A stretch of 64,000 nucleotides of DNA from Lentisphaera profundi. GTDB taxonomy: Bacteria; Verrucomicrobiota; Lentisphaeria; Lentisphaerales; Lentisphaeraceae. The notes beneath the pieces are model-generated. The model was not told the origin of the DNA and searched no databases. It saw only the letters and a program-made list of their open reading frames with translations. Position numbers and translations under genes: made by a program. Below, in pieces: positions 9,801 through 60,921 of the stretch. Position 1 is the stretch's first letter. Each line of letters begins with the position of its first letter. The stretch lies in the NCBI RefSeq assembly GCF_028728065.1, contig NZ_CP117811.1, forward strand, positions 806,001 to 870,000, given 5' to 3'.

Positions 9801-10049
9801 CGCTTTGGAGCCTTCACTGAAGAAGTTATAGCGTATATTAGTAGCCAAAAAATAAAATTTCTGGCTACTGCACTTGGGTTTTATTCAGCAGAAATTAAAA
9901 AAGGCTTATTCTATTTAGAAGGTGCGGATGGCCTCTTTAGAATGAGTCGAAAAATACCGCAAATTAAAAAGCAAGGACTCGCGGCATTAAAAGAAGCAGA
10001 GCAATTTTTACTAAATTTAGCTAAGCGACAAAAAGTTAAGCTTCTTTAG
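6861..10049 (+). CDS. mfd: transcription-repair coupling factor Mfd
   Basis: The 1062-residue protein has the Mfd domain order. A UvrB-like N-terminal part contains PGEFSLRGGILDVFSP. An RNA-polymerase interaction (CarD-like) domain starts near LNEGDFAVHANHGICRY. A superfamily 2 translocase follows, with Walker A GDVGFGKTE (about residue 554), a DEEQRFG Walker B, SATPIPRTL and a QLRGRVGR motif VI. The C-terminal TRCF domain comes last. Mfd removes stalled RNA polymerase and recruits UvrA. The ATG at 6861 has GGAG seven bases upstream and is preferred to an in-frame TTG at 6849. The last four bases overlap the convergent gene at 10046-10789. uvrB lies in the same window at 47.2 kb but is not linked. 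Confidence 0.96.
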   Translation: MFDSFTADFEKVLNHISPSQSLKIADLELTSLAIMSQIKNVDHAICVFETSAQAESILNELKKYQSLAQLSDIKLLHYPELNSDQVEYDIDLERSRTLNSMLESIAEKTLLLSSVASLLSAVVPPDKLNSQSVEIALKSEAFSPEILCELFTKMGFDNEVQVSLPGEFSLRGGILDVFSPDQKLPVRIEFFDNEIESLRLFDVDSQKSIAEMKSYQISPVEKTGLEDRGFLDYCRDYELIIVNDVAIEKHLQRFQSQAKQDFWGELKTSLSIHTNIDQDPESGIKDFPLVALAPIYRNSLPEVERTIQQAHQKFLLDRVKSWLDKSWQVHILCGSEAGKQRLEEVFDDKQGDNLKLYPQSLHYGFIIPEIKCAFLSEQELFGRPIEDLKDVSYSSQLQKNLEYEPELNEGDFAVHANHGICRYLGIEIKNGQEFLLLEFAEDRKLFLALDSSNLLMRYIGGKKSMPKLARLGTSFWQKSLDKAKDSARDYAAELLRLQAAREHSRGTIFSKDTHWQNLFEESFPFEETPDQLTSIEEVKADMEKPKPMDRLLCGDVGFGKTEVAMRAAFKAVMDSYQVAIIVPTTVLAQQHFHSFSKRMADYPIKIATLSRFISKKEQKKVLIAMANGEVDIVIGTHRLLQKDIIFKKLGLLVIDEEQRFGVESKESLKRMRVNVDILSMSATPIPRTLYLSMTGLRDFSTILTAPHNRKPVRTIVSKENDELIEMAISRELERGGQVYYLHNRVGTIDKVALKLKRMFPEAGILVGHGQMDEEELEMVMNEFTDGDAQILVCTTIIESGMDIRNANTMIIDRADRFGLSSLYQLRGRVGREHRQAYCYLLMPADEAIMDNAKERLSALRKHTHPGAGFKLAMRDLEIRGAGNMLGSQQSGHIAAVGFELYCQLLKKSVADLKGTVKQLTTASFNADFIHNGFQAVEGAISVALPPTYIESDDTRLEMYKRFSTMTTYQEVMNLETELKDRFGAFTEEVIAYISSQKIKFLATALGFYSAEIKKGLFYLEGADGLFRMSRKIPQIKKQGLAALKEAEQFLLNLAKRQKVKLL

Positions 10050-10789
10050 TAGTCCGGAACCCATTTATTACGGATCTGTTTTAAAGTGCCGTTTATTTTC
10101 CACTTCTGATAGATATCTAAAACTTGATTATACAGTTTCCCATTCCCATAATCTACTGCCCATGCTAAAGCGTCACTTTCAGTACCCCAAGTCATTTTAA
10201 TGAGTTCTTTATGGCTTTGTGCATACTTGACGATGCCGGGGCTTTCATGAAGAAAAACATCTATTTCTCCAGATTGAAGAGCACTAATAGCTTGATCTAA
10301 GCCTTCAAATGGAAGATTAGGGTTCTCGGGAAAATCATTTTTGACGAGCTCACCAAAAACAGAGCCTTCTACATAGCCAATTTTAAGCTCTGAACTAACT
10401 TCTTTTAAGGAGGGGTTAATGGAGTTTTCTTTATCCTTTTTAATTAGGATCATAATCCGCGTTTGTATGTAGGGAGGTAAAAATTTGACTTTGAAACTAC
10501 GGTTGTTATTAGAGGTCATTCCCGACATGATAATATCAATTTTATTTTCATTTAAGGCATTAATTAATTCATCAAAGGGTATTTCGACGAACTCGACTTC
10601 TCTATTTAGTTCTTTACCTAAAGCAAGAGCATAATCAATTTCTAAACCAGTATGTTGTCCACTCTTATCTTTGAAAGCTAAGGGAGAGTAATTAGCAGAT
10701 GTACCTACTCGAAGAGTGTTGTTGTAGCTACTACATGAGAATAGGTGAAGAAATAAAACTATAGTGATAAATGCTTTGATAATATGCAT
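10046..10789 (-). CDS. extracellular solute-binding lipoprotein (amino-acid type)
   Basis: The 247-residue protein begins with a lipoprotein signal (hydrophobic stretch ending LFSCSS), so Cys 19 or so should be acylated. The mature part is a family 3 periplasmic solute-binding domain: LRVGTSANYSPLAFKD, GLEIDYALALGKEL, FDELINALNENKIDIIMSGMT and a C-terminal WKINGTLKQIRNKW. Such proteins bind polar amino acids or related ligands for an ABC importer. No permease or ATPase lies beside it, so it may serve a distant transporter or a sensor. It is convergent with mfd, overlapping it by four bases. Confidence 0.88.
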   Translation of the reverse strand: MHIIKAFITIVLFLHLFSCSSYNNTLRVGTSANYSPLAFKDKSGQHTGLEIDYALALGKELNREVEFVEIPFDELINALNENKIDIIMSGMTSNNNRSFKVKFLPPYIQTRIMILIKKDKENSINPSLKEVSSELKIGYVEGSVFGELVKNDFPENPNLPFEGLDQAISALQSGEIDVFLHESPGIVKYAQSHKELIKMTWGTESDALAWAVDYGNGKLYNQVLDIYQKWKINGTLKQIRNKWVPDY

Positions 10790-10934
10790 GATAAGTACTT
10801 GCTTTGTTTATAGATAAATTCTGTTATTATTATAATAGAACCATGTTTTATAAGATATAAAATGATTTAAATTTTTTAATCTGAGAATTACTTAGTATAT
10901 TATTTGAATATATTAGGGGTATAAGAGTGAGATT

Positions 10935-11978
10935 ATGTTGATAGATCAAAAAACAGAAGAGTTAGTGTTAAAAGCTTTGAGTTACTATGCGCAAGGTGGC
11001 GAAAATATAAAACCTTCGCGAGATATAAATTCTGATTGTGCCTATAGCTATACTGATTTCATTCAGAAATGTGAGGGGATAGCAGTTGATGGCTTCTTAT
11101 TATTAGATGAATTAAGAGAAAGAGGTTTTTTACGAAAAATCATTAATGATCGACTTTTTCTATGTGATAAATGTAGTTCATGGCACATTAATTTACGAGA
11201 GGTATGCCCTGATTGTTCATCTCTTGATTGGAAACAAAAAAGACTCTATCATCACTTTAGTTGTGGATATGTGGGACTAGAAGATGAGTTTAAGGTACAC
11301 AGTTATGCTGAGCTTCATTGTCCTAAATGTGAGCAAGTAATGCGCCATATAGGTTTAGATTATGAGAAACCCACACAATCTTTTTTCTGCTATACTTGTG
11401 AACACATTTTTGATGAACATCAAACAAAGTCTTTATGTATAAGTTGCGGTGAGCAAAGTGATCTCGAAAAAATGGAGTTAAAAGAAATTTACTCTTATCA
11501 ACTGACGGCAAAAGCATATCAAGCAATTGAAAAAGGTAGTTTGAAAGAGACGAGTGTTGAAGACCTCATTAAAAATAAAGCTACGGAACTATATACCTAT
11601 GATTTTTTAATATTTTTATTGGATCAGCAACGTCAAATTGCTCAAGAATGTGGAGATCATTTGACCGCATGTATTATTTCTGGTCCAGAAAATAGAGAGT
11701 TCATAGATTATACAAAAACTTTAATTAAACCTAGTTTTTTCTTATCAGAATGGAAAGGGTCTTTTATTATCGTAGCGAGTCGAGGACGCAGTAAAGATCA
11801 CATAAAAGCATTTAAGATTTTATTAGATAACTTCCAAGAAATTAGAAAGCATTCATTAGTTGGATCTACTTTTGATTTTGAGCTAGAACTTGATGCAAAT
11901 AAGCAATTCGATTTATTTTTACAGACAAGTGTGAGTGATCGATCTAAGTTTAAAGAGGGAGGGTTTTGTGAGAATTAG
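10935..11978 (+). CDS. TackOD1-type zinc-ribbon protein
   Basis: The 347-residue protein has an array of Cys pairs: CDKC...WHIN, EVCPDC, HHFSCGYVG, CPKCEQVMRHIGLDY, FFCYTC and CISC. This pattern matches my recollection of the TackOD1 output domain, a metal-binding domain described in thaumarchaeal and bacterial signalling proteins. An N-terminal helical region of about 70 residues precedes it. The C-terminal third (about residues 210-347) has alternating strands and helices (ACIISGPENR, FIIVASRGR, HIKAFKILLDNF) and may be a degenerate signalling domain. It heads a cluster with a TolC-like protein (11-base overlap), an HlyD-like adaptor and a glycosyltransferase, which suggests that it controls glycan production or export. 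Confidence 0.7.
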   Translation: MLIDQKTEELVLKALSYYAQGGENIKPSRDINSDCAYSYTDFIQKCEGIAVDGFLLLDELRERGFLRKIINDRLFLCDKCSSWHINLREVCPDCSSLDWKQKRLYHHFSCGYVGLEDEFKVHSYAELHCPKCEQVMRHIGLDYEKPTQSFFCYTCEHIFDEHQTKSLCISCGEQSDLEKMELKEIYSYQLTAKAYQAIEKGSLKETSVEDLIKNKATELYTYDFLIFLLDQQRQIAQECGDHLTACIISGPENREFIDYTKTLIKPSFFLSEWKGSFIIVASRGRSKDHIKAFKILLDNFQEIRKHSLVGSTFDFELELDANKQFDLFLQTSVSDRSKFKEGGFCEN

Positions 11979-14637
11979 GCTTAGCCTTCTCTTCATTTCT
12001 ATCTTGTTGGCATTTACCTCATGTCAACAAAATTTTAATTCAGATCGTAGTAATGTAAAAACAGAGCTCGATATTGAGTCTGAGGGCTGGAAGCAAGCCT
12101 TGACAAATATTAATACTTCTAGAGGTCAAAAGTACTATTATTTAGAAGAGGGGAAGCTCAATAGGTGGGAAGGAGTAGAGGATGTTCAACAACTAATATC
12201 GATAGTAAAAGAAAAAGAGCTCATTATTCTAGATTTATGGGATCGTAGAAATGAGGAGTGGCAGGTTGAGCAATTGGTTTATAAAGCAGAGCAGGATATA
12301 GAGGACTTTATAGCTTTAAAACATGAAGGTGTTTACCAAATTGCCAAAGTATACATTCAGCTTGAACCCTTAGCAAGCCCCCAAAGTACCTCCGAGCCCT
12401 CCGAGCCCTCCGAGCCCCAAAGTACAGCCAAAATTACTGCAATTAAATTTATAAGTTCCAGTCCGGGAAATAAAAGTTTTCCTGCCTATAACAAAGATAA
12501 GCAAGTTTTATTGTATAATGTAGTAGAGAAATCCAATAATATTGAAAAACTTGATTTAAATTCGGGCTTGACTAAGACTTTAATAAAGAATGGCTCTGGA
12601 CCACGCTGGGTCGATGAGAACCAGTTTGTTTTTACCGATGAAAGCCAGACTCAAAGAGAGCTTTATTTAGCTAATTTGGAAGGTAAAAAAACTAAAGCAG
12701 ATGAAAATCAAGTGAAGCTGGCTTTAGAAGTTGCGGATACTTATACTGGAAAAGCCTATTATGCATTGAAATTGAGTGAATTAAAAGAATATGAAACGGC
12801 CTCTTATAGCTCACTTAAAGACTTGTTGAGAGTCGTGAGTCAGAGGTCTCCACAAATCAAAGTGGCTAAACATGAAGCTTTGACGGTTTTGGCAGAATAT
12901 TTTCTAGAAAGATACAATAAAGGACCAGACCTAGTCGTCGGAGCATCATACACAGGAGCTAGTAATTTGGCTACTGAAGAGGAAGAGCAGAGTGCAGGTG
13001 ATTACAGTAGTTTAAATGATTTCATGAGGATTACTACAGGTCTTAACTTTACTGTGATTCCGAATCGGAAATTCAGGGAGTCATTTAGTGATTATAAACA
13101 CTGGCGTTACGAAGAAGCTATACAAGTATTCTACCAAGCCGCAAATGATGAAATGTTTAGAACATTAAGTAATTTACATAAAATCATACATAAAAGATCT
13201 AAAATTCAAATATTAGAAACCATTATAAATACTTGTGATAAGAGTATGAAAAAATATACCAAGATGGAAAATATTACACTAGATGCACGTTCCAAAGTAG
13301 ATTTTTTTAAAGATCAGAAAGCTTTTTATGAACGTCAACTCGTCTTGGAGGATACCGAACTACTGGCTGCTAGAGACCGCATTCGTCTCAGTTTGGATAT
13401 GCCAGATAATCAAGAACTTAATTTAGCCTTACTCTCCCAGATTATACCTCCTGTAGAACTGAGGTCATTATTTGATTTATTAAATCACTCTGATCTTAAT
13501 AATGCCTATCAACGACAGCTGTATTTTCAGATTATGCAGGCAGCTGCTGAAAGAGATATGGGACACCCTGTATATCGCAGAGATTATTTAAATCTACAAG
13601 TGAATTATGGATTTGGGATACATCATTGGGATAAAGTTATGGATGATTTTGTCAGTGTTTCAGCCAATACGATGGTGCCATTACGTTCGGAAGAATTACA
13701 GTTATCCTATAATCGCCAATGGACAAATCGTGTAAAATCACTTCGTTACCAACATGATCTTTCACAAAAAAATTCAAAAATAAAGATTACGGAGCTTTAT
13801 AGAAAAATCAAAGGTTTTAAGAGTTATCATACGCAATTTCAGCATAACCTTTTAAATATGTATGATAAAATTCGACGCCAAGTAGCTCTGAACAAGCTAG
13901 GGAATTATTCAAAAAAAGAAATGGATGATTTGGACGAAGTTCATTTAGAATACCTCAATGGTCAATTAGAAGAAAGAGATGTAAGTGCGGAGGGAACTCA
14001 GAGTCATTTGGACTTATTAAGAGAGGTTGGTGACTTTCACATGTACCCTAAATGGTTTGCTGACTCAAGTAGAGATGAAGTAAGGGTTTTTCATGCCGCG
14101 AAGTTTAGCGACCTGAATAATGATTTACATATCTTTAAAAACAAAATAAAATCACTTAAAGATTTTGAGCGGTTTTATTTAATTCTAGAAACAAAAGATA
14201 TGACGGAGAATGAATTAGAGATTCAATATGTGTATAAGAAAACTCTTGAAAAGAAGGGTGGGTTTATACCGACGTTTTATAATGATTCATCTTTAGAAAG
14301 TAAAATGAAAAAACTGATTGATTTACAAGATGATTCGAGAGCCTATTTCGATAAAGTTGGGCTTGTTTTTAAAAAAGAAAGTGAGATTAAAGCGGCTTTG
14401 GATTTATGTTTGGAGTACCTAGGGGAAAATCAAGAGCTACACCTATTTCTCCCTCAAGGTATAAAGTCTATTTATATTCCACCTGAGATAACTCAAAAGA
14501 TAAATCTCTATTCAACTGACTATAGCAAAGCAAAGAAAAATGTATTAATACATGATTTTGAAATAAAAAAAATTAATGTTCTTTATAAAGAAAGAACTAA
14601 TAAAACTAAGACAGGTACAGATGAACTTACGAACTAA
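11968..14637 (+). CDS. TolC-like outer-membrane lipoprotein with extended N-terminus
   Basis: A GTG start at 11968, with GAGGGAGGG just upstream, gives an 889-residue protein with lipoprotein signal MRIRLSLLFISILLAFTSC. Residues about 25-130 form an unrecognised domain. A linker of Ser-Glu-Pro repeats follows (about 142-152), then a segment resembling TolB-like propeller repeats (VLLYNVV, LYLANLEGKK). From about residue 280 on, long amphipathic helices with LLRVVSQRSPQIKVAKHEA recall the outer-membrane efflux (TolC) fold; the family repeat is hard to follow to the end. It overlaps the TackOD1 gene by 11 bases and the HlyD-like gene by 17. Its likely role is the outer-membrane duct of a tripartite export machine. 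Confidence 0.65.
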   Translation: MRIRLSLLFISILLAFTSCQQNFNSDRSNVKTELDIESEGWKQALTNINTSRGQKYYYLEEGKLNRWEGVEDVQQLISIVKEKELIILDLWDRRNEEWQVEQLVYKAEQDIEDFIALKHEGVYQIAKVYIQLEPLASPQSTSEPSEPSEPQSTAKITAIKFISSSPGNKSFPAYNKDKQVLLYNVVEKSNNIEKLDLNSGLTKTLIKNGSGPRWVDENQFVFTDESQTQRELYLANLEGKKTKADENQVKLALEVADTYTGKAYYALKLSELKEYETASYSSLKDLLRVVSQRSPQIKVAKHEALTVLAEYFLERYNKGPDLVVGASYTGASNLATEEEEQSAGDYSSLNDFMRITTGLNFTVIPNRKFRESFSDYKHWRYEEAIQVFYQAANDEMFRTLSNLHKIIHKRSKIQILETIINTCDKSMKKYTKMENITLDARSKVDFFKDQKAFYERQLVLEDTELLAARDRIRLSLDMPDNQELNLALLSQIIPPVELRSLFDLLNHSDLNNAYQRQLYFQIMQAAAERDMGHPVYRRDYLNLQVNYGFGIHHWDKVMDDFVSVSANTMVPLRSEELQLSYNRQWTNRVKSLRYQHDLSQKNSKIKITELYRKIKGFKSYHTQFQHNLLNMYDKIRRQVALNKLGNYSKKEMDDLDEVHLEYLNGQLEERDVSAEGTQSHLDLLREVGDFHMYPKWFADSSRDEVRVFHAAKFSDLNNDLHIFKNKIKSLKDFERFYLILETKDMTENELEIQYVYKKTLEKKGGFIPTFYNDSSLESKMKKLIDLQDDSRAYFDKVGLVFKKESEIKAALDLCLEYLGENQELHLFLPQGIKSIYIPPEITQKINLYSTDYSKAKKNVLIHDFEIKKINVLYKERTNKTKTGTDELTN

Positions 14638-15811
14638 GCATAAGGCAGCATCACCATACGTGATGCCGGCCTCTAAAAATTACGCGAAAAGTAAATTGTG
14701 GAAAAAAGTTCGTGTGCTCGCAATTATTAGTGTATTACTATTTTTTGCAATTTATTACTACTATCAAGCTTTTATCAGGATTGACGGTTTAGTTATTGTA
14801 GATTCAAATCAAATCACTCTTGAGAGTCCTGGTAAAGGAGTCGTTGAAAGCATGATTAAAATACGAGAATTTGAAGATATTAAAGAAGGGGAAAAGATAG
14901 CCGTTATTGGTTTACATGTTTCTGATGTTCTGACTCTCGATCAAGAAATTTCCTCTATTCAGGAAAAACTACTTAGTATTGACGAAGAAATTGAACGCCT
15001 TAAAACATCTAATATACGGGAAAGTATTAAGTTTTTACAGAAACTCAGAGATGTAGATAAAGAAATTGAAGCCGCTCGTTTAGAAACGGTCACTCTTAAG
15101 GCTAAAAAAATAACTCAGGATGAGCTATATAAAATTAGTGACTCAGAGCTTACTGGCGCGGCTAAACTTTATAAATTAGAAATTATTAATATTAATCAGT
15201 ATAAAAAATTCCAAAAAGAAGCTTTGACATCTAAAAGTGATTTAAGTGAAGTCAATAATAGAATCGATTATTACGAAAACATTATTAAACATCTGAAACA
15301 TAGAACGGAACTTTTGGGTAATGACAAAGAACAATACTTAGCAGAATATAATAAAGATGTTGAAAGTCAGATAAAAAAGCGGACTTTCTTAGAAAGTAAA
15401 CTCAAAGAATATACGAGCTACGCAAATGGTAAGAGTAGGGCCTTAGAAATCTACTCGCCGATAAATGGACGAGTCCTGCAGAATCATATTACGACGGGAG
15501 ATTCATTAACTGAAGGAAGTCAATTAATTACTCTTTATCGTCCTGAGGTAATGGAACTTAGGGTTTATGTAGAAGAACGCTACATGGATAGGCTTAAGCC
15601 AAGTTCCCGTGCAATTGTTAAAATTTTTGATAAAAAATTTGAAACTAAAATATTACGGATTAATAAAGTAATAACTCATTCACCAAGAGAATTAAGGGGG
15701 CGTCGTCTCGTTCCTGAAGATCGCTATTATTTCACTGTAGATTTAGTGACAGATAATTTACCAGAAGGCTTGTTTCCAGGTAAAACTGGAAGGGTTATTT
15801 TTAAACAATGA
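14621..15811 (+). CDS. HlyD-family membrane fusion protein
   Basis: Starting at ATG 14621, the 396-residue protein has one N-terminal transmembrane helix (VLAIISVLLFFAIYYYY), then a half-lipoyl strand pair (ITLESPGKGVVESM). A long coiled-coil hairpin follows at about residues 110-275, then the second half-lipoyl segment (IYSPINGRVLQNHITTGDSL) and a beta-barrel domain (ELRVYVEERYMDRLKPSSRA). This is the standard periplasmic adaptor layout linking an inner-membrane partner to a TolC-like duct. The start lies inside the end of the TolC-like gene, and the stop overlaps the glycosyltransferase start (ATGA). No ABC, RND or MFS pump is nearby; the neighbouring glycosyltransferase is the obvious inner-membrane partner, as in Alg44-type alginate systems. 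Confidence 0.85.
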   Translation: MNLRTKHKAASPYVMPASKNYAKSKLWKKVRVLAIISVLLFFAIYYYYQAFIRIDGLVIVDSNQITLESPGKGVVESMIKIREFEDIKEGEKIAVIGLHVSDVLTLDQEISSIQEKLLSIDEEIERLKTSNIRESIKFLQKLRDVDKEIEAARLETVTLKAKKITQDELYKISDSELTGAAKLYKLEIININQYKKFQKEALTSKSDLSEVNNRIDYYENIIKHLKHRTELLGNDKEQYLAEYNKDVESQIKKRTFLESKLKEYTSYANGKSRALEIYSPINGRVLQNHITTGDSLTEGSQLITLYRPEVMELRVYVEERYMDRLKPSSRAIVKIFDKKFETKILRINKVITHSPRELRGRRLVPEDRYYFTVDLVTDNLPEGLFPGKTGRVIFKQ

Positions 15812-17121
15812 TGGACTCAATCAGTTTTCTATTTGTTGATGTATGGTTTTACATTACACAGCAATTTCAGACTAGAGAAGCTTTTGATTGGGTACTTTTT
15901 TTCTTTCCTTTTGTAGCTCTGATCGAGGGACCTCGTTATATAATTCCAATTTTTGTACTTCCTATAATGAGGGCCTTTGGTTTGCGTGGAGAAAATAAAT
16001 TTTTGCAAAAAGAGTTTTTACGAAGTAATCCTCGAGTCAGTATTATTGTTGCGGGACGTAATGAGGAAGCGATCATTGGACGGACAATAGATTCTCTTTT
16101 AGAACTTCCCTATGAAAACAAAGAAATTATTGTCATAGATGATGCAAGTGATGATAATATGTACAGCGTTTGTCTGCCCTATGCAAAGAAAGGTCTTATC
16201 CGCCTCTTTAAGAATGAAAGTCAAATGGGCCGTACAGGCAGGCCCGTGGCCTCAAACTTAGGCCTAAAAATGTCTACAGGTGAATTTATCATTAGTGTCG
16301 ATGCCGATACGAGTTATGATCGTGATACTATCGAGCGCATGGTAGGCCCCTTTTATGATCCTGAAGTCGGAGGGGTTGCAGGTAATTTAAAAGCACGAAA
16401 TGCTGGAGAGAGTATTTGGGCCGACTTTCAGGCTCTTGAATACATGATCTCCATTGGTTTATGGAAACGTTGGACAAGTATGATTGGAGCTACTACACAG
16501 GCCTCAGGCGCCTTTGGTTCCTTCCGCAAAAAAGCATTATTGGACTTTGGAGGTTGGGACCCCGAATTAGCGGAAGATGCAGACTTAACTTTAAAAGTAA
16601 TTAAAAATGGTTGGAAAATAACATTCTCACCACATGCCGTGGCCATGACATCCGTGCCAGCAGATTTAAAAACTCTTGTTAGCCAGCGAGTTCGTTGGGA
16701 CAAGGGATCGATTCGAACATACTTTCATAAACACGCGAATATTTTTCGTTTTTGGAAATTTGGTTTTAATCATTTTATTGAGTTGGGCCAAGAATTTTTG
16801 ATATTTTATGTGGCCACTTTAATTTACCCTTTCTATATCATTTACATGTTAATAAATGATTGGAAATTTTTTCTGTTTGCGTATTGTTTTGCTTATTGTT
16901 TATATTCAATTATCAGCTTTTTCTCGATCTTGGTATCAGTTAGTTTTAGTGAAAGAAAACACGAAGAATGGTGGATGCTATGGTATGCCCCCATTTACCC
17001 CTTTTACAAAGAGGTTTTTCGTTGGGTACGTTTACGTGCATGTATTGAAGAGACGTTCAGGTTGGATTATCAAGAAGGTTATATACCAGAATCTGGTTAT
17101 AAAAATTCCGAAAAATGGTAA
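15808..17121 (+). CDS. membrane glycosyltransferase family 2, processive type
   Basis: The 437-residue protein has an N-terminal membrane segment, a GT-A domain opening with PRVSIIVAGRNEE, and C-terminal membrane helices from about residue 325. Catalytic landmarks are DAD at 165-167 (nucleotide and metal), the acid in LAEDADLT (Glu 256-Asp 257) and QRVRW at 293-297. The Q-x-x-R-W motif is the mark of processive synthases of the cellulose/hyaluronan/PNAG type. It would polymerise a sugar at the inner membrane and pass the chain outwards. The ATGA overlap with the HlyD-like gene ties it to the export cluster. The sugar cannot be read from sequence. Confidence 0.88.
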   Translation: MMDSISFLFVDVWFYITQQFQTREAFDWVLFFFPFVALIEGPRYIIPIFVLPIMRAFGLRGENKFLQKEFLRSNPRVSIIVAGRNEEAIIGRTIDSLLELPYENKEIIVIDDASDDNMYSVCLPYAKKGLIRLFKNESQMGRTGRPVASNLGLKMSTGEFIISVDADTSYDRDTIERMVGPFYDPEVGGVAGNLKARNAGESIWADFQALEYMISIGLWKRWTSMIGATTQASGAFGSFRKKALLDFGGWDPELAEDADLTLKVIKNGWKITFSPHAVAMTSVPADLKTLVSQRVRWDKGSIRTYFHKHANIFRFWKFGFNHFIELGQEFLIFYVATLIYPFYIIYMLINDWKFFLFAYCFAYCLYSIISFFSILVSVSFSERKHEEWWMLWYAPIYPFYKEVFRWVRLRACIEETFRLDYQEGYIPESGYKNSEKW

Positions 17122-38445: not shown

Positions 38446-40308
38446 CGGATATTCTTTGACTGAAACGAACTTAACCTGTTTAATTGCAATGATTTAAGTT
38501 CTGTTCAAAATAAAAAAATACTGGCTACTTGAGTTTCACCCCTAGTAGATTCAGAATTTTTTGCTGTTCTTCATCGGGTTGAGAGACCTCTTTTTTGACA
38601 ACAACGCCGTCAATTAAGTTCTCAGTTATACGTATAGATTTTAAGCGCTCAACGACATGCTGGAAAGTCCAGCGCTTTTCTTTGTACTTTCCGTCTTCGT
38701 CAAATAGTAGCTTTAGTAATTGCGTCGCATTCCACTGTATGTAATACGCTAAGGTAGAAAGAAAAATGTGTGACTTTAAGCGCTCATCGGTTTTGTGGTG
38801 CATTGGCCGCAACTCAAGAGAAACGGTCTTTAGGTTTCTGAAGGCCTGTTCGACTTTTTGTAAGTCTCTATAAGCTAATACCGTCTCATCTTTACCGATA
38901 TTTTCTTTGGGCGCGTCAGTTCGAATTATGTAACAGCCGTCGAATTTTTCTTCTTGCTTCACTTTTTCTTCATTAAGCGACCAGGTTAATTTCCCATTAT
39001 CGTCCACATCCCATTGGAAAAACTTCTCCACTTTACAGCGCTCAAATAAACGGCCTACACTGGCCGCCACTCTCACGCGTTGACGCTTCTGTTTTACGCT
39101 GGACTTCTGAGTTAATTCCTTCTCTATTTTAGCGATAAGAGCTCGTCTAGTTGCATTCTCATCCCTCATTGTATTTTCATTTTTGCACAGCATGTAGCGT
39201 ATATTCTTGTTGTCGTCATCCATTACTTCGAGGATACTCCTGGAGTCAAACAACTCCATTTGGATATTATCTTTTTCGTGCAAAGTTTTAATTTGAGAAT
39301 GAGTTAGAGCCGTGATGGTGCTGTAATCAATTTCATTAACTTCAGCAATTCTTTTCGGGGTGAGCATGCCTCGATCTCCTGTGAAGATGAGGTTTTTAAG
39401 CCCATACTTCTCGGAAAGCTTTTTCACCTCGCCCAATACTGTAGTCTGATCTGAGGTAGAACCCTTAAATATCTCTACGCCAACGGGGCAGCCTTTTTTG
39501 TCGGTGAGCAGGCCGATGGCAATCTGTTTGTAGCCTACCTTGCCACCCTTAGGTTTTCCAAATGCGACTAAATCTGAATCTTCATATTTGCCTTCGAACC
39601 ATGTATTTGTCATGTCGTATAGAACCATACAGCCGTCTTCTAGGTGTTTTTTTGAAAGCTTGCGTTCGATCTTATCTTTTCGCTCGAGTAGCTCATCCAT
39701 GGGCTTGTAGCAATGGGCTTCAACATCTGGACGAACTCCGAGTTCATACCCGGCGAGAGCCCAAAGAAATGTATCTTGGTACATGTTCGTTAGACTGAGT
39801 TTACTGCCTTGATAAACCAGACGCCCCACAATCATCGCCAAAACATCCTCTCGGCACTGAGTTTTTTGAGAGAAAATCATTTTATCGAGCCCGAGATTCT
39901 TAGCGAGCTCCATGAAGACGTAGCTCGCACCAAATTCATAGCTGCGCCCGTGCCGTAAGTCCTCCAGGTTAAAATCACCTTTCTTGCCCTTGAGACTATT
40001 CTTTAGAGCCAATAATTGAGCTGGGGGTAACTTCGAAACATTACTGAGCGTGCGATGCTTGATCTTTCCGTCTTCACGAAAAGTCTCACGAACGAGATGG
40101 CTCACATAGATTTTTCCGTTGCGCTTAGATTTTATGGTCTCGAGATACATACTGGCTACTCTTTTTAGGATTATTTTTGATAAAATAAAGGTAAAAACAT
40201 AAAAATCAATATGGAATAATTATATTTTACTGGCTACACTTTTTAATCAAAATAAGCACAAGCCTATATGGGTGAGGTGCTTGCGCTAAAAAACCAAAAG
40301 AATATCCG
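38446..40308 (-). mobile_element. IS1634-type insertion sequence, copy 1
   Basis: The element is 1863 bases long. Its ends carry inverted repeats (CGGATATTCTTT on the left, the complement AAAGAATATCCG on the right, with the inner base differing slightly). The limits were found by comparing the two copies in this window. The flanks are TTTTAT on the left and TTTAAT on the right, an imperfect six-base target duplication. The copies differ at four positions by eye. The nonamer ACTGGCTAC occurs three times inside (38520, 40151, 40229). The single gene is the transposase. Confidence 0.92.
38525..40150 (-). CDS. IS1634-family DDE transposase, copy 1
   Basis: The 541-residue transposase has an N-terminal region with MYLETIKSKRNGKIYVSHLVRE and a DDE core of the IS4-related type: MVLYDMTNTWFEG (first Asp), IFTGDRGMLT (second Asp), YRDLQKVEQAFRNLKT (the catalytic Glu of the YREK-like motif). 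LRPMHHKTDERLKSHIFL near the C-terminus is the family's usual block. It differs from copy 2 by a single residue (Tyr in AGYELG against His). It appears complete and possibly active. Confidence 0.95.
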   Translation of the reverse strand: MYLETIKSKRNGKIYVSHLVRETFREDGKIKHRTLSNVSKLPPAQLLALKNSLKGKKGDFNLEDLRHGRSYEFGASYVFMELAKNLGLDKMIFSQKTQCREDVLAMIVGRLVYQGSKLSLTNMYQDTFLWALAGYELGVRPDVEAHCYKPMDELLERKDKIERKLSKKHLEDGCMVLYDMTNTWFEGKYEDSDLVAFGKPKGGKVGYKQIAIGLLTDKKGCPVGVEIFKGSTSDQTTVLGEVKKLSEKYGLKNLIFTGDRGMLTPKRIAEVNEIDYSTITALTHSQIKTLHEKDNIQMELFDSRSILEVMDDDNKNIRYMLCKNENTMRDENATRRALIAKIEKELTQKSSVKQKRQRVRVAASVGRLFERCKVEKFFQWDVDDNGKLTWSLNEEKVKQEEKFDGCYIIRTDAPKENIGKDETVLAYRDLQKVEQAFRNLKTVSLELRPMHHKTDERLKSHIFLSTLAYYIQWNATQLLKLLFDEDGKYKEKRWTFQHVVERLKSIRITENLIDGVVVKKEVSQPDEEQQKILNLLGVKLK

Positions 40309-50221: not shown

Positions 50222-50940
50222 GCTAGTCCGCCTCTCAAGGTGGGCACACCTTGCAGGGAAGGGGACGGAGTCCCAATACTTCATCCGCCTGCTCAACTCC
50301 CGCTTCATTTTTCCCTGGGACCGCCAAGCACCAGCTTGGCATATTCTTCACCACAGCCCCGCAGACAAAACCCTGGGACCGCAGGCGTCTCGCCTGCTCA
50401 CCTCCCGCGTCACTTTACCCTGGGACCGCCAAGCACCAGCTTGGCATTTTATTCTCCACCACAGCCCTGCAGACCGTTCACTTCGCTCACTGCAGAAAAC
50501 CCTGGGACTGCAGGCGTCTCGCCTGCTCACCTCCCGCGTCACTTTACCCTGGGACCGCCGAGCACCAGCTTGGCATTTTATTCTCCACCACAGCCCTGCA
50601 GACAAAACTCTGGGACCGCAGGCGTCTCGCCTGCTCAAAGACCGTTTCTCCGTCACTCAAAGACCGGCAATAACTTACCTACAAGATCGGGCACAGCCCT
50701 GCAGACCGTTCACTTCGCTCACTGCAGAAAATCCTGGGACCGCCAAGCACCAGCTTGGCATTATCCTCTTCACCACAGCCCCGCAGAAAATCCTGGGACC
50801 GCAGGCGTCTCGCCTGCTTATAGAGCGTGGCTCCGCCACTCAAAGACCGGCAATAACTTACCTACAAGATCGGGCAAAGCCCTAAAGATCGTTCACTGCA
50901 GAAAATCCTGGGACCGCAGGCGTCTCGCCTGCATACAGAC
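50222..50940. repeat. array of two GC-rich inverted-repeat modules
   Basis: Module A contains the inverted repeat GCAGGCGTCTCGCCTGC and starts at 50381, 50510, 50618, 50801 and 50916. Module B contains GCCAAGCACCAGCTTGGC (one copy with G for A) and starts at 50323, 50428, 50557 and 50742. Each is preceded by TGGGACCGC or TGGGACTGC. They alternate with fillers such as CACCACAGCCCTGCAGA and a segment CGTTCACTTCGCTCACTGCAG. Open frames across the array translate to repeated GTAGVSPA-like peptides on one strand and their mirror on the other, and are best seen as by-products. Confidence 0.9.
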
Positions 50941-51340
50941 TACTCAAAGACTGTTTTCTTCTTAATTCTTTAAGCGCAGCGAACGATCTTTCAGGCGTCA
51001 GCCGCTCTTTCCTCTTTAAGCGCAGCGATCTTACTTCTTTCAGGCGGAGCCGTTCATTAAGTTCGCTTGCGAACGTTCTTACTTCTTTCAGGCGAAGCCG
51101 TTCTGCAGGGCCTTGCCCGATCTGCAGTGAGCACCGCGAACGATCTTTAAGCGCAGCGATCTTACTTCTTTCAGGCGTCAGCCGCTCTTTCCTCTTTCAG
51201 CGCAGCGTTCTTACTTCATTAAGTTCGCTTGCGAACGTTCTTACTTCTTTCAGGCGGAGCCGTTCTGCAGGGCTTTGCCCGATCTGCAGTGAGCACCGCG
51301 AACGATCTTTGCGCGCAGCGAACTTTGTGTGACTCATGCT
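50941..51340. repeat. second repeat family: short GC-rich palindromes
   Basis: No gene is seen. Repeated words are CAGGCGGAGCCGTTC (or GGCGAAGCCG), AAGTTCGCTTGCGAACG (itself an inverted repeat), TTAAGCGCAGCGA and CTGCAGGGCCTTGCCCGATC followed by TGCAGTGAGC. The long composite of the first and last words occurs at about 51086-51131 and 51248-51293, and again at 52411-52457 beyond the next gene. Confidence 0.85.
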
Positions 51341-52787: not shown

Positions 52788-53029
52788 GACGCGCTAAAAA
52801 TAGAGGCAGTAGCTGGGAGCACCGCATTCCATGCGGACTCTATTGTTGGACTGTTCCCATCTTACTTCTTTCAGGCGAAGCCGTTCTTTAAGTTCGCTTG
52901 CGAACGCTCTCAGCTCGGCACGAGCGTAAACTCAGCGCGAAGCGCGTCCACTCAGGCAAAGCCGTTTTTTAATTATAAATTGTCAATTATGAATTGTTGG
53001 TACCGTATAGAGTAAAAAAAAGGTATAAA
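52788..53029. repeat. repeat-rich intergenic stretch
   Basis: No gene is visible. It contains CAGGCGAAGCCGTTC, TTCGCTTGCGAACG and other words of the 51 kb families. Just before the caspase-like gene there is AATTATAAATTGTCAATTAT, which could contribute to a promoter. Confidence 0.6.
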
Positions 53030-54250
53030 ATGACATTTGTAAAATTTTGCTTATTAGTGCTTACGGCATTTGTAGTTAGTGCAAGTGATTTAAGAGTGCT
53101 GAGTATTGGGGTAGAGCCGGACTTATTATCTCAGGGGAAGTTAGATATTTACGCACAAGATGCAGTTTTTGTGGCAAAGGCTTTTGAAAAAAATGCTGGG
53201 CTTAATCATTCTGTTGAGGTCAATACTTTGGCGGGTGCGAATGCGACGAGGGCAAATGTATTCAAATACATTTCTGATATAGCCAAAGAGCTAAAAGCTG
53301 ATGATACGACAATAATATTTTTTTCGACTCATGGACATATGAATAAAGAAGGTGAGTTTTATTTTTCGATGGCGCCAGAAAAACCAAGTGCTAATACTTG
53401 GGGTAAAATGACAGGAAAAGATTTTAATACGGCTTTAAAAGCACTAAAAGGCAGGGTGCTTGTGTTGTTAGATACTTGTGAAGCCGAGGGTATTATTAAA
53501 GCAAGGATAGCAGATAATGTGTCCTATATAGTGGCTTCAAAAATCAATGAAAGTTCTTATGGTCAAGAAAGTAATACGGCTATTCCTCATGGCTACTTTG
53601 TCATTTCTCTATGTGAGGCTCTAAGTGGCTTAGCAGATGCTAATAAGGATAAGAAGCTAAGCTTGAGTGAATGCTATGATTATATTGCAAAAAGAACTTG
53701 TGCTTTGGAAGTTTCTCAAACTACCTGTGCTCATTTACGTCCCTCTCATGAAAAGTTAATTCTATCAAAAATCAGACGCAATTCAAGACCGACTTATATC
53801 CTAGATAAAATTAAGTCACGCAATCCTTTTGGCTGTAAGGATCTTATAGATCCGCAACATGGATCAGTCAAAAATTTTTTAAGAGGTCTCAACTTCACTG
53901 ACAATGCAAAAGATGAAAACGCTAAAGAATGGAATAAACAGAAGCTGCCAAAAAGCGTCTCAATTACGGGCGAGTGGGAGAGCCGTTGGAAATCCGATGA
54001 TGGTGATTGGTTCCTAGGCAATGCATCAATTAAAATTCTTGGAACGCGTAAATTTATACTTTTTAAAGGTACGGAATCCAATTATATATTTGAATTAAAG
54101 GCGCTGGGTAAAAATAAAATAGGCGGGGGCTATATGAATCTTAATGATCAATCGGATTGCGGACCATGGCTAGGTATTATTATATCCGATGAGAGGATTG
54201 ATGGTTTTTGGCCAAGGGGACGTTGGGATTTTAGACGCAAGACTAAATAA
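53030..54250 (+). CDS. secreted caspase-like (peptidase C14) protein
   Basis: The ATG at 53030 gives 406 residues and places a signal peptide at the N-terminus (MTFVKFCLLVLTAFVVSAS); an upstream TTG frame adds only a basic stretch. The caspase-like fold shows RVLSIGVEP, DAVFVAKAFEKN, IIFFSTHGH with the likely catalytic His 101, and VLVLLDTCEAEG with the likely catalytic Cys 150. A Lys/Asp-rich EF-hand-like segment (DANKDKKLSLSECYDYI) follows and could bind calcium, as in metacaspase relatives. The last 90 residues form a separate beta-rich domain. It is alone in the repeat island. Confidence 0.85.
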   Translation: MTFVKFCLLVLTAFVVSASDLRVLSIGVEPDLLSQGKLDIYAQDAVFVAKAFEKNAGLNHSVEVNTLAGANATRANVFKYISDIAKELKADDTTIIFFSTHGHMNKEGEFYFSMAPEKPSANTWGKMTGKDFNTALKALKGRVLVLLDTCEAEGIIKARIADNVSYIVASKINESSYGQESNTAIPHGYFVISLCEALSGLADANKDKKLSLSECYDYIAKRTCALEVSQTTCAHLRPSHEKLILSKIRRNSRPTYILDKIKSRNPFGCKDLIDPQHGSVKNFLRGLNFTDNAKDENAKEWNKQKLPKSVSITGEWESRWKSDDGDWFLGNASIKILGTRKFILFKGTESNYIFELKALGKNKIGGGYMNLNDQSDCGPWLGIIISDERIDGFWPRGRWDFRRKTK

Positions 54251-54535: not shown

Positions 54536-55528
54536 TCAAGTAGTAAGTGCAACACCTACTGATTTTCTTAAGTTAATTCCAGTTAAATTTTCAAAAACTT
54601 CATATGGCGTCTTAAATTTCAGACATTTTCGAGGTCTACTATTAAGTTTATCAACCGCAATAATGACTTCATTTTCACTGATACCATCAAGCGCCATAGA
54701 CTTAGGAAAGTATTGCCGTAACAATCCATTAGCATTCTCGTTTTGGCCTCGTTCCCATGAGTGATATGGTTTAGCAAAATAACTATTACATTCCAATTCC
54801 TTGGAGATAGTCTCATGCTGAGTAAATTCTTTTCCATTATCAAATGTAAGAGTATGAACCAAATCTTTGATCGGTGTTAGCAAAGAGATTATTGCATCTT
54901 TCACAAGCGTGGCTTTCTTATGAGACACAGGCAATGCTAGACGCAGTTTTGATTTTCGATCATCCATAGTTACAATGGCTCCTTTATGAGCTTTTCCTAT
55001 AATAGTATCCATCTCCCAGTCGCCTACACGCTCTCGCTTATTAGCTGCCTCAGGTCGTTCGTCTATATCCACACGATTGGGAATCCCATTACGACTATGC
55101 TGGTTGCCATAACGTTTGCGATAAGTTTTATTCTGATGACGTAGAAGCTTATATAGCTCACCTCCTGATTCTTTATCTCTAAGAATATATTGATAAACTG
55201 TTTCATGATGAAGTAAGATGGATTGGTCATCTTTTAGTCGACCTACAATTTGTTCGGGGCTCCAATCCTTGAGTAAATGCTCATCTATATAGTCCTTAAC
55301 TTCTTCAGTTAGTTTAATAGCCTTTGGTTTCACTTTGTGTCTTTCTTGAGCAAAGTCATTGGCTTGCTTGTTTCGATAACCACGGAGACCTTTATTACGT
55401 TTAAGTTCTCGTGAAAGTGTGCTTGTACTACGATTTAAGTTTTTTGCTATTTTAGTGATCGATGTGCCTGCCTTTAATTCAATTTCAAGGTAGTGTCTTT
55501 CTTCAAGACTCAGATGTTCATATGTCAT
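54536..55528 (-). CDS. IS30-family transposase
   Basis: The 330-residue transposase begins MTYEHLSLEERHYLEIEL with an IS30 helix-turn-helix (ITKIAKNLNRSTSTLSREL). The DDE core is seen in GDWEMDTIIGKAHKG, LTFDNGKEFTQHE and ERGQNENANGLLRQYFPK. It ends with LNSRPRKCLKFKTPYEVF and KSVGVALTT. The last codons run through the inverted repeat and the stop is supplied by the flanking DNA. It is intact. Confidence 0.95.
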   Translation of the reverse strand: MTYEHLSLEERHYLEIELKAGTSITKIAKNLNRSTSTLSRELKRNKGLRGYRNKQANDFAQERHKVKPKAIKLTEEVKDYIDEHLLKDWSPEQIVGRLKDDQSILLHHETVYQYILRDKESGGELYKLLRHQNKTYRKRYGNQHSRNGIPNRVDIDERPEAANKRERVGDWEMDTIIGKAHKGAIVTMDDRKSKLRLALPVSHKKATLVKDAIISLLTPIKDLVHTLTFDNGKEFTQHETISKELECNSYFAKPYHSWERGQNENANGLLRQYFPKSMALDGISENEVIIAVDKLNSRPRKCLKFKTPYEVFENLTGINLRKSVGVALTT

Positions 55529-59058: not shown

Positions 59059-60921
59059 CGGATATTCTTTGACTGAAACGAACTTAACCTGTTTAATTGC
59101 AATGATTTAAGTTCTGTTCAAAATAAAAAAATACTGGCTACTTGAGTTTCACCCCTAGTAGATTCAGAATTTTTTGCTGTTCTTCATCGGGTTGAGAGAC
59201 CTCTTTTTTGACAACAACGCCGTCAATTAAGTTCTCAGTTATACGTATAGATTTTAAGCGCTCAACGACATGCTGGAAAGTCCAGCGCTTTTCTTTGTAC
59301 TTTCCGTCTTCGTCAAATAGTAGCTTTAGTAATTGCGTCGCATTCCACTGTATGTAATACGCTAAGGTAGAAAGAAAAATGTGTGACTTTAAGCGCTCAT
59401 CGGTTTTGTGGTGCATTGGCCGCAACTCAAGAGAAACGGTCTTTAGGTTTCTGAAGGCCTGTTCGACTTTTTGTAAGTCTCTATAAGCTAATACCGTCTC
59501 ATCTTTACCGATATTTTCTTTGGGCGCGTCAGTTCGAATTATGTAACAGCCGTCGAATTTTTCTTCTTGCTTCACTTTTTCTTCATTAAGCGACCAGGTT
59601 AATTTCCCATTATCGTCCACATCCCATTGGAAAAACTTCTCCACTTTACAGCGCTCAAATAAACGGCCTACACTGGCCGCCACTCTCACGCGTTGACGCT
59701 TCTGTTTTACGCTGGACTTCTGAGTTAATTCCTTCTCTATTTTAGCGATAAGAGCTCGTCTAGTTGCATTCTCATCCCTCATTGTATTTTCATTTTTGCA
59801 CAGCATGTAGCGTATATTCTTGTTGTCGTCATCCATTACTTCGAGGATACTCCTGGAGTCAAACAACTCCATTTGGATATTATCTTTTTCGTGCAAAGTT
59901 TTAATTTGAGAATGAGTTAGAGCCGTGATGGTGCTGTAATCAATTTCATTAACTTCAGCAATTCTTTTCGGGGTGAGCATGCCTCGATCTCCTGTGAAGA
60001 TGAGGTTTTTAAGCCCATACTTCTCGGAAAGCTTTTTCACCTCGCCCAATACTGTAGTCTGATCTGAGGTAGAACCCTTAAATATCTCTACGCCAACGGG
60101 GCAGCCTTTTTTGTCGGTGAGCAGGCCGATGGCAATCTGTTTGTAGCCTACCTTGCCACCCTTAGGTTTTCCAAATGCGACTAAATCTGAATCTTCATAT
60201 TTGCCTTCGAACCATGTATTTGTCATGTCGTATAGAACCATACAGCCGTCTTCTAGGTGTTTTTTTGAAAGCTTGCGTTCGATCTTATCTTTTCGCTCGA
60301 GTAGCTCATCCATGGGCTTGTAGCAATGGGCTTCAACATCTGGACGAACTCCGAGTTCATGCCCGGCGAGAGCCCAAAGAAATGTATCTTGGTACATGTT
60401 CGTTAGACTGAGTTTACTGCCTTGATAAACCAGACGCCCCACAATCATCGCCAAAACATCCTCTCGGCACTGAGTTTTTTGAGAGAAAATCATTTTATCG
60501 AGCCCGAGATTCTTAGCGAGCTCCATGAAGACGTAGCTCGCACCAAATTCATAGCTGCGCCCGTGCCGTAAGTCCTCCAGGTTAAAATCACCTTTCTTGC
60601 CCTTGAGACTATTCTTTAGAGCCAATAATTGAGCTGGGGGTAACTTCGAAACATTACTGAGCGTGCGATGCTTGATCTTTCCGTCTTCACGAAAAGTCTC
60701 ACGAACGAGATGGCTCACATAGATTTTTCCGTTGCGCTTAGATTTTATGGTCTCGAGATACATACTGGCTACTCTTTTTAGGATTATTTTTGATAAAATA
60801 AATGTAAAAACATAAAAATCAATATGAAATAATTATATTTTACTGGCTACACTTTTTAATCAAAATAAGCACAAGTCTATATGGGTGAGGTGCTTGCGCT
60901 AAAAAACCAAAAGAATATCCG
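59059..60921 (-). mobile_element. IS1634-type insertion sequence, copy 2
   Basis: The 1863-base element has the same ends as copy 1. It is flanked by a perfect six-base target duplication TTTAGT (59053-59058 and 60922-60927). It sits inside the DUF2357/DUF524-type gene in reverse orientation. Four base differences from copy 1 are visible, pointing to a recent duplication. Confidence 0.95.
59138..60763 (-). CDS. IS1634-family DDE transposase, copy 2
   Basis: The 541-residue protein is identical to copy 1 except for His in AGHELG, caused by G at 60361 where copy 1 has A at 39748. All motifs given for copy 1 are present, so both copies look intact and possibly active. Confidence 0.95.
   Translation of the reverse strand: MYLETIKSKRNGKIYVSHLVRETFREDGKIKHRTLSNVSKLPPAQLLALKNSLKGKKGDFNLEDLRHGRSYEFGASYVFMELAKNLGLDKMIFSQKTQCREDVLAMIVGRLVYQGSKLSLTNMYQDTFLWALAGHELGVRPDVEAHCYKPMDELLERKDKIERKLSKKHLEDGCMVLYDMTNTWFEGKYEDSDLVAFGKPKGGKVGYKQIAIGLLTDKKGCPVGVEIFKGSTSDQTTVLGEVKKLSEKYGLKNLIFTGDRGMLTPKRIAEVNEIDYSTITALTHSQIKTLHEKDNIQMELFDSRSILEVMDDDNKNIRYMLCKNENTMRDENATRRALIAKIEKELTQKSSVKQKRQRVRVAASVGRLFERCKVEKFFQWDVDDNGKLTWSLNEEKVKQEEKFDGCYIIRTDAPKENIGKDETVLAYRDLQKVEQAFRNLKTVSLELRPMHHKTDERLKSHIFLSTLAYYIQWNATQLLKLLFDEDGKYKEKRWTFQHVVERLKSIRITENLIDGVVVKKEVSQPDEEQQKILNLLGVKLK

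Follow-up and report, generated by a model that had tools for sequence, protein, structure and literature searches.

A TackOD1–pseudo-GGDEF protein linked to GT2, HlyD-like and TolC-like genes in Lentisphaera profundi and many other bacteria: a putative exopolysaccharide secretion system

Introduction

Within the 64 000 nt of Lentisphaera profundi DNA analysed here (contig NZ_CP117811.1, positions 806 001–870 000; hereafter the window), a gene for a cysteine-rich protein heads a cluster that encodes a TolC-like channel, a HlyD-like adaptor and a GT2 glycosyltransferase. This raises the question of what such an assembly produces, by which route the product would leave the cell, and what the first protein contributes. 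An earlier note, made from the sequence alone, had proposed a device that makes and secretes a glycan, headed by a protein of the signalling type, and this is supported by the domain assignments, predicted folds and recurrence described below. The part identities given in that note stand, whilst the pseudo-GGDEF domain, the GH18-like tail of the homologous exporters, the TackOD1–GT2–HlyD core and the fact that the locus forms an islet had been overlooked.

Within the literature searched (mostly open-access, with preprints outside), TackOD1 is named only in PMC5847659, where its function is called obscure. No description of the TackOD1–GT2–HlyD–TolC combination was found in the same body of work, and a prior description is possible. 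The components are of known kinds; it is their combination, and the link to TackOD1, that appear new.

Operon layout and genomic setting

Sequence inspection places the four genes on the + strand between 10935 and 17121 (Table 1), with overlaps of 11 nt (TackOD1/TolC-like; GTG start at 11968, gene 1 stop at 11978), 17 nt (TolC-like/HlyD, if HlyD begins with MNLRTK at 14621; beginning at the ATG further upstream, at 14576, would make it 62 nt) and 4 nt (HlyD/GT2), which agrees with the 4–17 bases given previously. As had also been observed, the operon genes include no ABC, RND or MFS pump. Scans for promoters and terminators returned counts equal to the shuffled expectation.

Table 1. Coordinates of the operon genes, their domains and the neighbouring islet gene within the window
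Feature	Position	Strand	Evidence
TackOD1 protein, 347 aa, regulator	10935..11978	+	PF18551 E=1.5e-44; AF2 pLDDT 90.5
TackOD1 zinc-ribbon domain, residues 8–190, five CxxC + C110	10956..11504	+	PF18551 match, Cys columns
Pseudo-GGDEF C-terminal domain, residues 208–347	11556..11975	+	Foldseek to GGDEF structures, prob 1.00, TMt up to 0.71
TolC-like outer-membrane lipoprotein, 889 aa from GTG	11968..14637	+	AF2 model vs 1ek9; homologues match OEP; lipobox by eye
N-terminal all-beta TolB-propeller-like segment, residues 55–243	12130..12696	+	DSSP of model; weak TolB match E=7e-5; DUF5050 E=1.9e-4 in homologue L032
TolC core, two beta-hairpin/long-helix repeats, residues 283–687	12814..14028	+	AF2 model, TolC match
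TolC-like C-terminal alpha/beta remnant, residues 735–849	14170..14514	+	Position of homologues' GH18-like barrel; LDxEP motif absent
HlyD-like periplasmic adaptor, 396 aa	14621..15811	+	PF13437 E=2.1e-9
Membrane GT2, polymerase-type glycosyltransferase, 437 aa	15808..17121	+	PF13641 E=2.1e-27; PgaC_IcaA E=9.6e-48, below cut-off; motifs
SBP_bac_3 lipoprotein, divergent, same islet	10046..10789	-	PF00497 E=3.4e-32

Together with the divergent SBP_bac_3 gene, the operon forms an islet of ~7.07 kb (10046–17121) between mfd and a bVLRF1 gene. Two genomes of the same genus lack this islet, with mfd and the bVLRF1 gene lying about 40 bp apart, and so the operon was either gained in L. profundi or lost in both relatives. 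Transfer is favoured because of the patchy distribution of the set and the presence of a close GT2 homologue (68 % identical) in another family. The SBP_bac_3 gene is missing from other loci and was rejected as a part of the system.

Elsewhere, the window harbours two nearly identical transposase-like ORFs of 541 aa (38525–40150 and 59138–60763 (-)) and an IS30-like transposase-like ORF (54536–55528). A proline-rich ORF of repeated 'GTAGVSPAHLPRHFTLGPPSTSLA'-like units (50240–50965) is probably a non-coding DNA repeat array, and the ORF at 52994–54250 resembles, by eye, a caspase-like (C14) peptidase (DTCEAEG).

The TackOD1 protein and its pseudo-GGDEF domain

The suspected resemblance of the first protein to TackOD1 is confirmed by a Pfam profile search, in which it scores 152 bits against PF18551, far above the curated cut-off of 32. 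The domain is defined by 11 conserved cysteines, arranged as five CxxC motifs and one HxxC (PMC5847659), and all 11 are intact in the window protein (C77/80, C91/94, C129/132, C152/155, C168/171, and C110 with H106/H107). Amongst homologues this Cys/His set is invariant or almost so, a pattern that fits structural zinc ribbons; the earlier proposal of a metal- or redox-sensing controller was consequently dropped, as nothing supports sensing. A sequence search found no solved TackOD1 structure.

For the C-terminal part of the protein, a Foldseek search with the AF2 model returned 46 PDB matches at E-values up to 0.001, all of them GGDEF-containing structures, and Pfam detects GGDEF from sequence in several TackOD1 homologues (E=3.5e-12 in L082). 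The GG(D/E)EF motif itself is missing from the window protein and from 59/59 aligned homologues; the domain is therefore a pseudo-cyclase, and an active diguanylate cyclase is ruled out. Database labels for TackOD1 proteins at loci L124–L127 and on plasmids vary between 'diguanylate cyclase', 'response regulator' and 'hypothetical'; labels such as the first are probably misleading, and these are likely misannotations, given that the catalytic motif is missing from the relatives that were aligned.

The RxxD motif of homologues lies five residues upstream of the position of the lost GGDEF motif, where PleD and PelD have their I-site. Of 34 loci in GGDEF-bearing genomes, 27 retain this RxxD, versus 4 of 15 in genomes without GGDEF (Fisher p=0.0009, in a test that ignores kinship, most GGDEF-less genomes being Bacteroidota). 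Judged from these sequences, I-site retention tracks the c-di-GMP capability of the genome. As RxxD is also frequent in active cyclases, its presence alone is no proof of c-di-GMP binding; in most lineages, c-di-GMP binding by the pseudo-GGDEF domain has probably been retained at this site. Several Bacteroidota TackOD1 proteins lack the whole pseudo-GGDEF domain, and in the window protein the RxxD is replaced (K265..F268). Profile searches of the L. profundi genome (completeness about 96 %) gave no match to GGDEF or PilZ, and with the I-site also lost, c-di-GMP control in this organism is rejected on present evidence.

The TolC-like exporter and its C-terminal tail

The window TolC-like protein has no Pfam OEP match of its own; homologues in the same position do. 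In its AF2 model, for which the mean pLDDT is 74, ~430 residues match TolC of E. coli (1ek9) with E=1.1e-14 and a TMt of 0.76; the model displays two repeats of a beta-hairpin and long coiled helices, bearing out the TolC-like identity assigned before. An N-terminal propeller-like segment, likewise suggested before, is plausible, this region being all-beta with a weak match to TolB.

In homologues, the C-terminal domain matches a solved Cellulomonas fimi structure that is labelled a putative glycoside hydrolase (10yv, E=7.2e-10) and, weakly, GH18 (E=1.6e-5; best score 25.2 bits, below the 29.6 cut-off). An xDxEP motif occurs within this domain in 25 of the 31 TolC-like proteins >600 aa near TackOD1, as part of a DGxHLDIEPH signature in which D and E are invariant (the GH18 pattern being DGxDxDxE). 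Fusion of TolC to a GH18-like domain points to a carbohydrate polymer as the exported product. The C-terminus of the window protein is shorter than that of its homologues and has lost the catalytic D/E motif; it shares with the GH18-like domain position and beta-alpha pattern only, and hhalign on two sequences gave nothing usable. This degenerate tail hence provides no support for hexosamine in the L. profundi genome. In the closest relative, the TolC-like gene is split into two ORFs (L106:11013–13591); either a frameshift in the sequencing or a genuinely divided gene could account for this.

The glycosyltransferase, its adaptor and the likely product

The GT2 harbours D112, DAD (165–167), D257/D259 and QRVRW (293–297), with catalytic residues that at least 97 % of 66 homologues share, so that the processive type read earlier from its DAD, ED and QRVRW motifs holds. 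By its D, DxD, ED and QxxRW signatures, the enzyme is predicted to be of the processive polymerase type; its membrane segments were judged by eye. The window GT2, like each of the eight other GT2s tested, has PgaC_IcaA as its best NCBIfam model, at scores (129–176 bits; 163 for the window GT2) that do not reach the equivalog cut-off of 422, and the GT2 is nearest to PgaC and NodC models. The third protein, already recognized as a HlyD-like adaptor, matches HlyD_3 (PF13437) at 38.5 bits versus a cut-off of 22.2. A beta-linked hexosamine polymer, PNAG- or chitin-like, is the most likely product, an N-acetylhexosamine polymer being favoured because of GH18 chemistry combined with a PgaC/NodC-like GT2.

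Recurrence and linkage of the gene set

With regard to distribution, TackOD1 scores above cut-off in 10 of 388 genomes of the window's phylum, and phylum loci with flanking sequence have GT2 and HlyD genes beside it. A TackOD1 profile scan of a species-genome collection yielded 71 loci, spanning Lentisphaerota, Planctomycetota, Omnitrophota, Bacteroidota, several proteobacterial classes, Campylobacterota and Desulfobacterota, as well as Nitrospinota, Calditrichota, KSB1, Aminicenantes, Caldisericota and Synergistota, with taxa assigned from the titles of the records; the set recurs across over a dozen phyla of bacteria. GT2 and HlyD genes lie within four ORFs of TackOD1 on the same strand in 62/73 distinct loci and in 40/43 long-flank loci. 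A TolC-like gene is also present in 33/43 of the latter. Neither of the findings named earlier as a refutation, a lack of recurrence or an unrelated family for the cysteine protein, thus applies. No pump gene was found in the conserved core of the surveyed loci. Where a TolC-like gene was undetected, some loci may use a TolC encoded elsewhere.

Using ORFs far from TackOD1 as a control for the general abundance of these families, GT2s account for 66/493 near versus 1/357 far ORFs, with corresponding counts of 65 versus 2 for HlyD and 63 versus 1 for TolC-like genes. The association of all three with TackOD1 is far beyond chance. As these neighbours were detected with locally built profiles, trained on genes near TackOD1, Pfam was used as an independent check, and finds OEP, HlyD and TackOD1 in many of the loci. 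Public plasmid annotation also has TackOD1 followed by GT2 and then HlyD in Plesiomonas, a Rhodobacteraceae and Phyllobacterium; on an Aeromonas plasmid, TackOD1 sits at the record end, with no GT2/HlyD neighbours visible there. When the search starts from the GT2 instead, the nine top matches in the 388 phylum genomes all come from genomes with a TackOD1 locus. The pairwise distances of TackOD1 co-vary with those of the GT2 (r=0.785; highest value in 2000 permutations, 0.176). Gene order varies (TackOD1–TolC–HlyD–GT2, as in the window, TackOD1–GT2–TolC–HlyD, or TolC–HlyD–TackOD1–GT2), and so the linkage has been kept through rearrangement.

Four loci have TackOD1 without a GT2/HlyD neighbour: L074 (Azospirillum), L080 (an alphaproteobacterial MAG), L081 (Gallionellaceae) and L102 (a Planctomycetota MAG, at a contig end). 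The neighbours tested there are mostly without a Pfam match, and these cases are possibly another use of TackOD1. L098 and some other loci are cut by contig ends.

Proposed model and alternative explanations

On balance, it is probable that the operon encodes a synthase-dependent exopolysaccharide secretion system under TackOD1–pseudo-GGDEF control, with a product that is probably a hexosamine polymer. From the computed domains, folds, recurrence, co-variation and motif loss, we infer polymerisation, an export route, a product and a direct contact between TackOD1 and the GT2. The inner-membrane GT2 would polymerise a nucleotide-sugar and extrude the chain, the HlyD protein would bridge the periplasm between GT2 and outer-membrane channel, and the chain would exit via a trimeric TolC-fold lipoprotein. 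The cytosolic TackOD1–pseudo-GGDEF protein would switch or assemble the GT2, a role like that of PelD in the Pel system and of BcsE in cellulose secretion. In L. profundi, where the c-di-GMP input appears lost, TackOD1 itself would have to carry the GT2 contact, either gated by another input or constitutive. More broadly, the chances seem about even that TackOD1 is the core of an undescribed, phylum-crossing exopolysaccharide secretion class with GT2–HlyD and, in many lineages, a TolC–hydrolase fusion, wherein c-di-GMP adds an optional input that many Bacteroidota and the present lineage have lost.

Within the same machine, TackOD1 might instead regulate transcription of the operon or act as its chaperone, rather than switching the GT2 post-translationally. 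The first account of TackOD1 presents it as an output domain in response regulators of archaea (PMC5847659), zinc ribbons are often nucleic-acid binders, and a REC–TackOD1 protein also occurs amongst these loci (L032). Yet a local transcription regulator need not stay beside the GT2 through many changes in gene order, and strong TackOD1–GT2 co-variation, together with a pseudo-GGDEF partner domain in many phyla, points to protein–protein control as in PelD/BcsE, making this alternative unlikely.

A different role for the exporter is also conceivable, in that HlyD and TolC partners usually work with ABC, RND or MFS pumps; the GT2 might then modify a lipid- or protein-linked acceptor, with HlyD–TolC exporting a small glycoconjugate or serving a pump encoded elsewhere. 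We hold this to be rather improbable, as the conserved core is devoid of a pump gene, the GT2 has the processive QxxRW motif and is closest to PgaC/NodC models, and the GH18-like tails on exporters suggest a polymer substrate. Finally, absence of the islet from the two same-genus genomes, along with loss of the I-site and GH motif, could mark the operon as a decaying acquired islet of little function; four open frames with tight overlaps, intact GT2 catalytic residues and a full complement of TackOD1 cysteines render this very improbable.

If the proposed secretion system is real, it would provide the first functional assignment for the orphan TackOD1 domain, and a natural series in which c-di-GMP input is retained, decayed or deleted. 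It would also add a synthase-dependent exopolysaccharide class, with a TolC–hydrolase fusion, beyond alginate, cellulose, PNAG and Pel. That TackOD1 is tied to one enzyme type across so many phyla makes its role directly testable.

Relation to known systems

A GT2 with a HlyD/MFP-like partner is known from Alg8–Alg44 (alginate) and BgsA–BgsB (mixed-linkage glucan). The Alg44-type parallel drawn earlier for the adaptor is sound, but there are more GT2–HlyD precedents, namely BgsA–BgsB and XcsA–XcsB–TolC. Binding of c-di-GMP falls on a PilZ domain in Alg44 and on the C-terminus in BgsA, the GT2 of the glucan system (PMC5567048), and both systems lack TackOD1 and a TolC–GH fusion. PgaC/IcaA, the PNAG synthase, provides the best NCBIfam model for the GT2, yet has other partners (PgaA, PgaB and PgaD).

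Closest in its parts is the cyanobacterial XcsA–XcsB(HlyD)–TolC model for cellulose, which likewise combines a GT2, a HlyD-like adaptor and a TolC-like channel without a dedicated pump, and which includes an endoglucanase, the TolC route itself being unvalidated (PMC12430437). There, PilZ resides on the synthase, XcsC is separate, TolC lies outside the operon and TackOD1 is absent (PMC12430437), whereas the present system is a single operon with a hydrolase-like domain fused to TolC in many loci, and PilZ is found neither in the operon nor in the L. profundi genome.

Archaeal TackOD1 proteins have the same 11-Cys domain and likewise include REC–TackOD1 fusions, but are known from response regulators and thaumarchaeal pilus loci, with function obscure and a GT2 link undescribed (PMC5847659). 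With regard to control, PelD (Pel) and BcsE (cellulose) similarly possess a degenerate GGDEF domain, with an RxxD I-site in many members, and are encoded beside a polysaccharide synthase (PMC7112168, PMC7439463). Their synthases and exporters are different, and accounts of them do not mention a TackOD1 zinc-ribbon domain (PMC7112168, PMC7439463). BcsE is a degenerate REC–GGDEF regulator of a synthase (PMC7439463), and a loss comparable to that in L. profundi has been published for streptococcal PelD, which no longer has the domain in species without c-di-GMP (PMC7112168).
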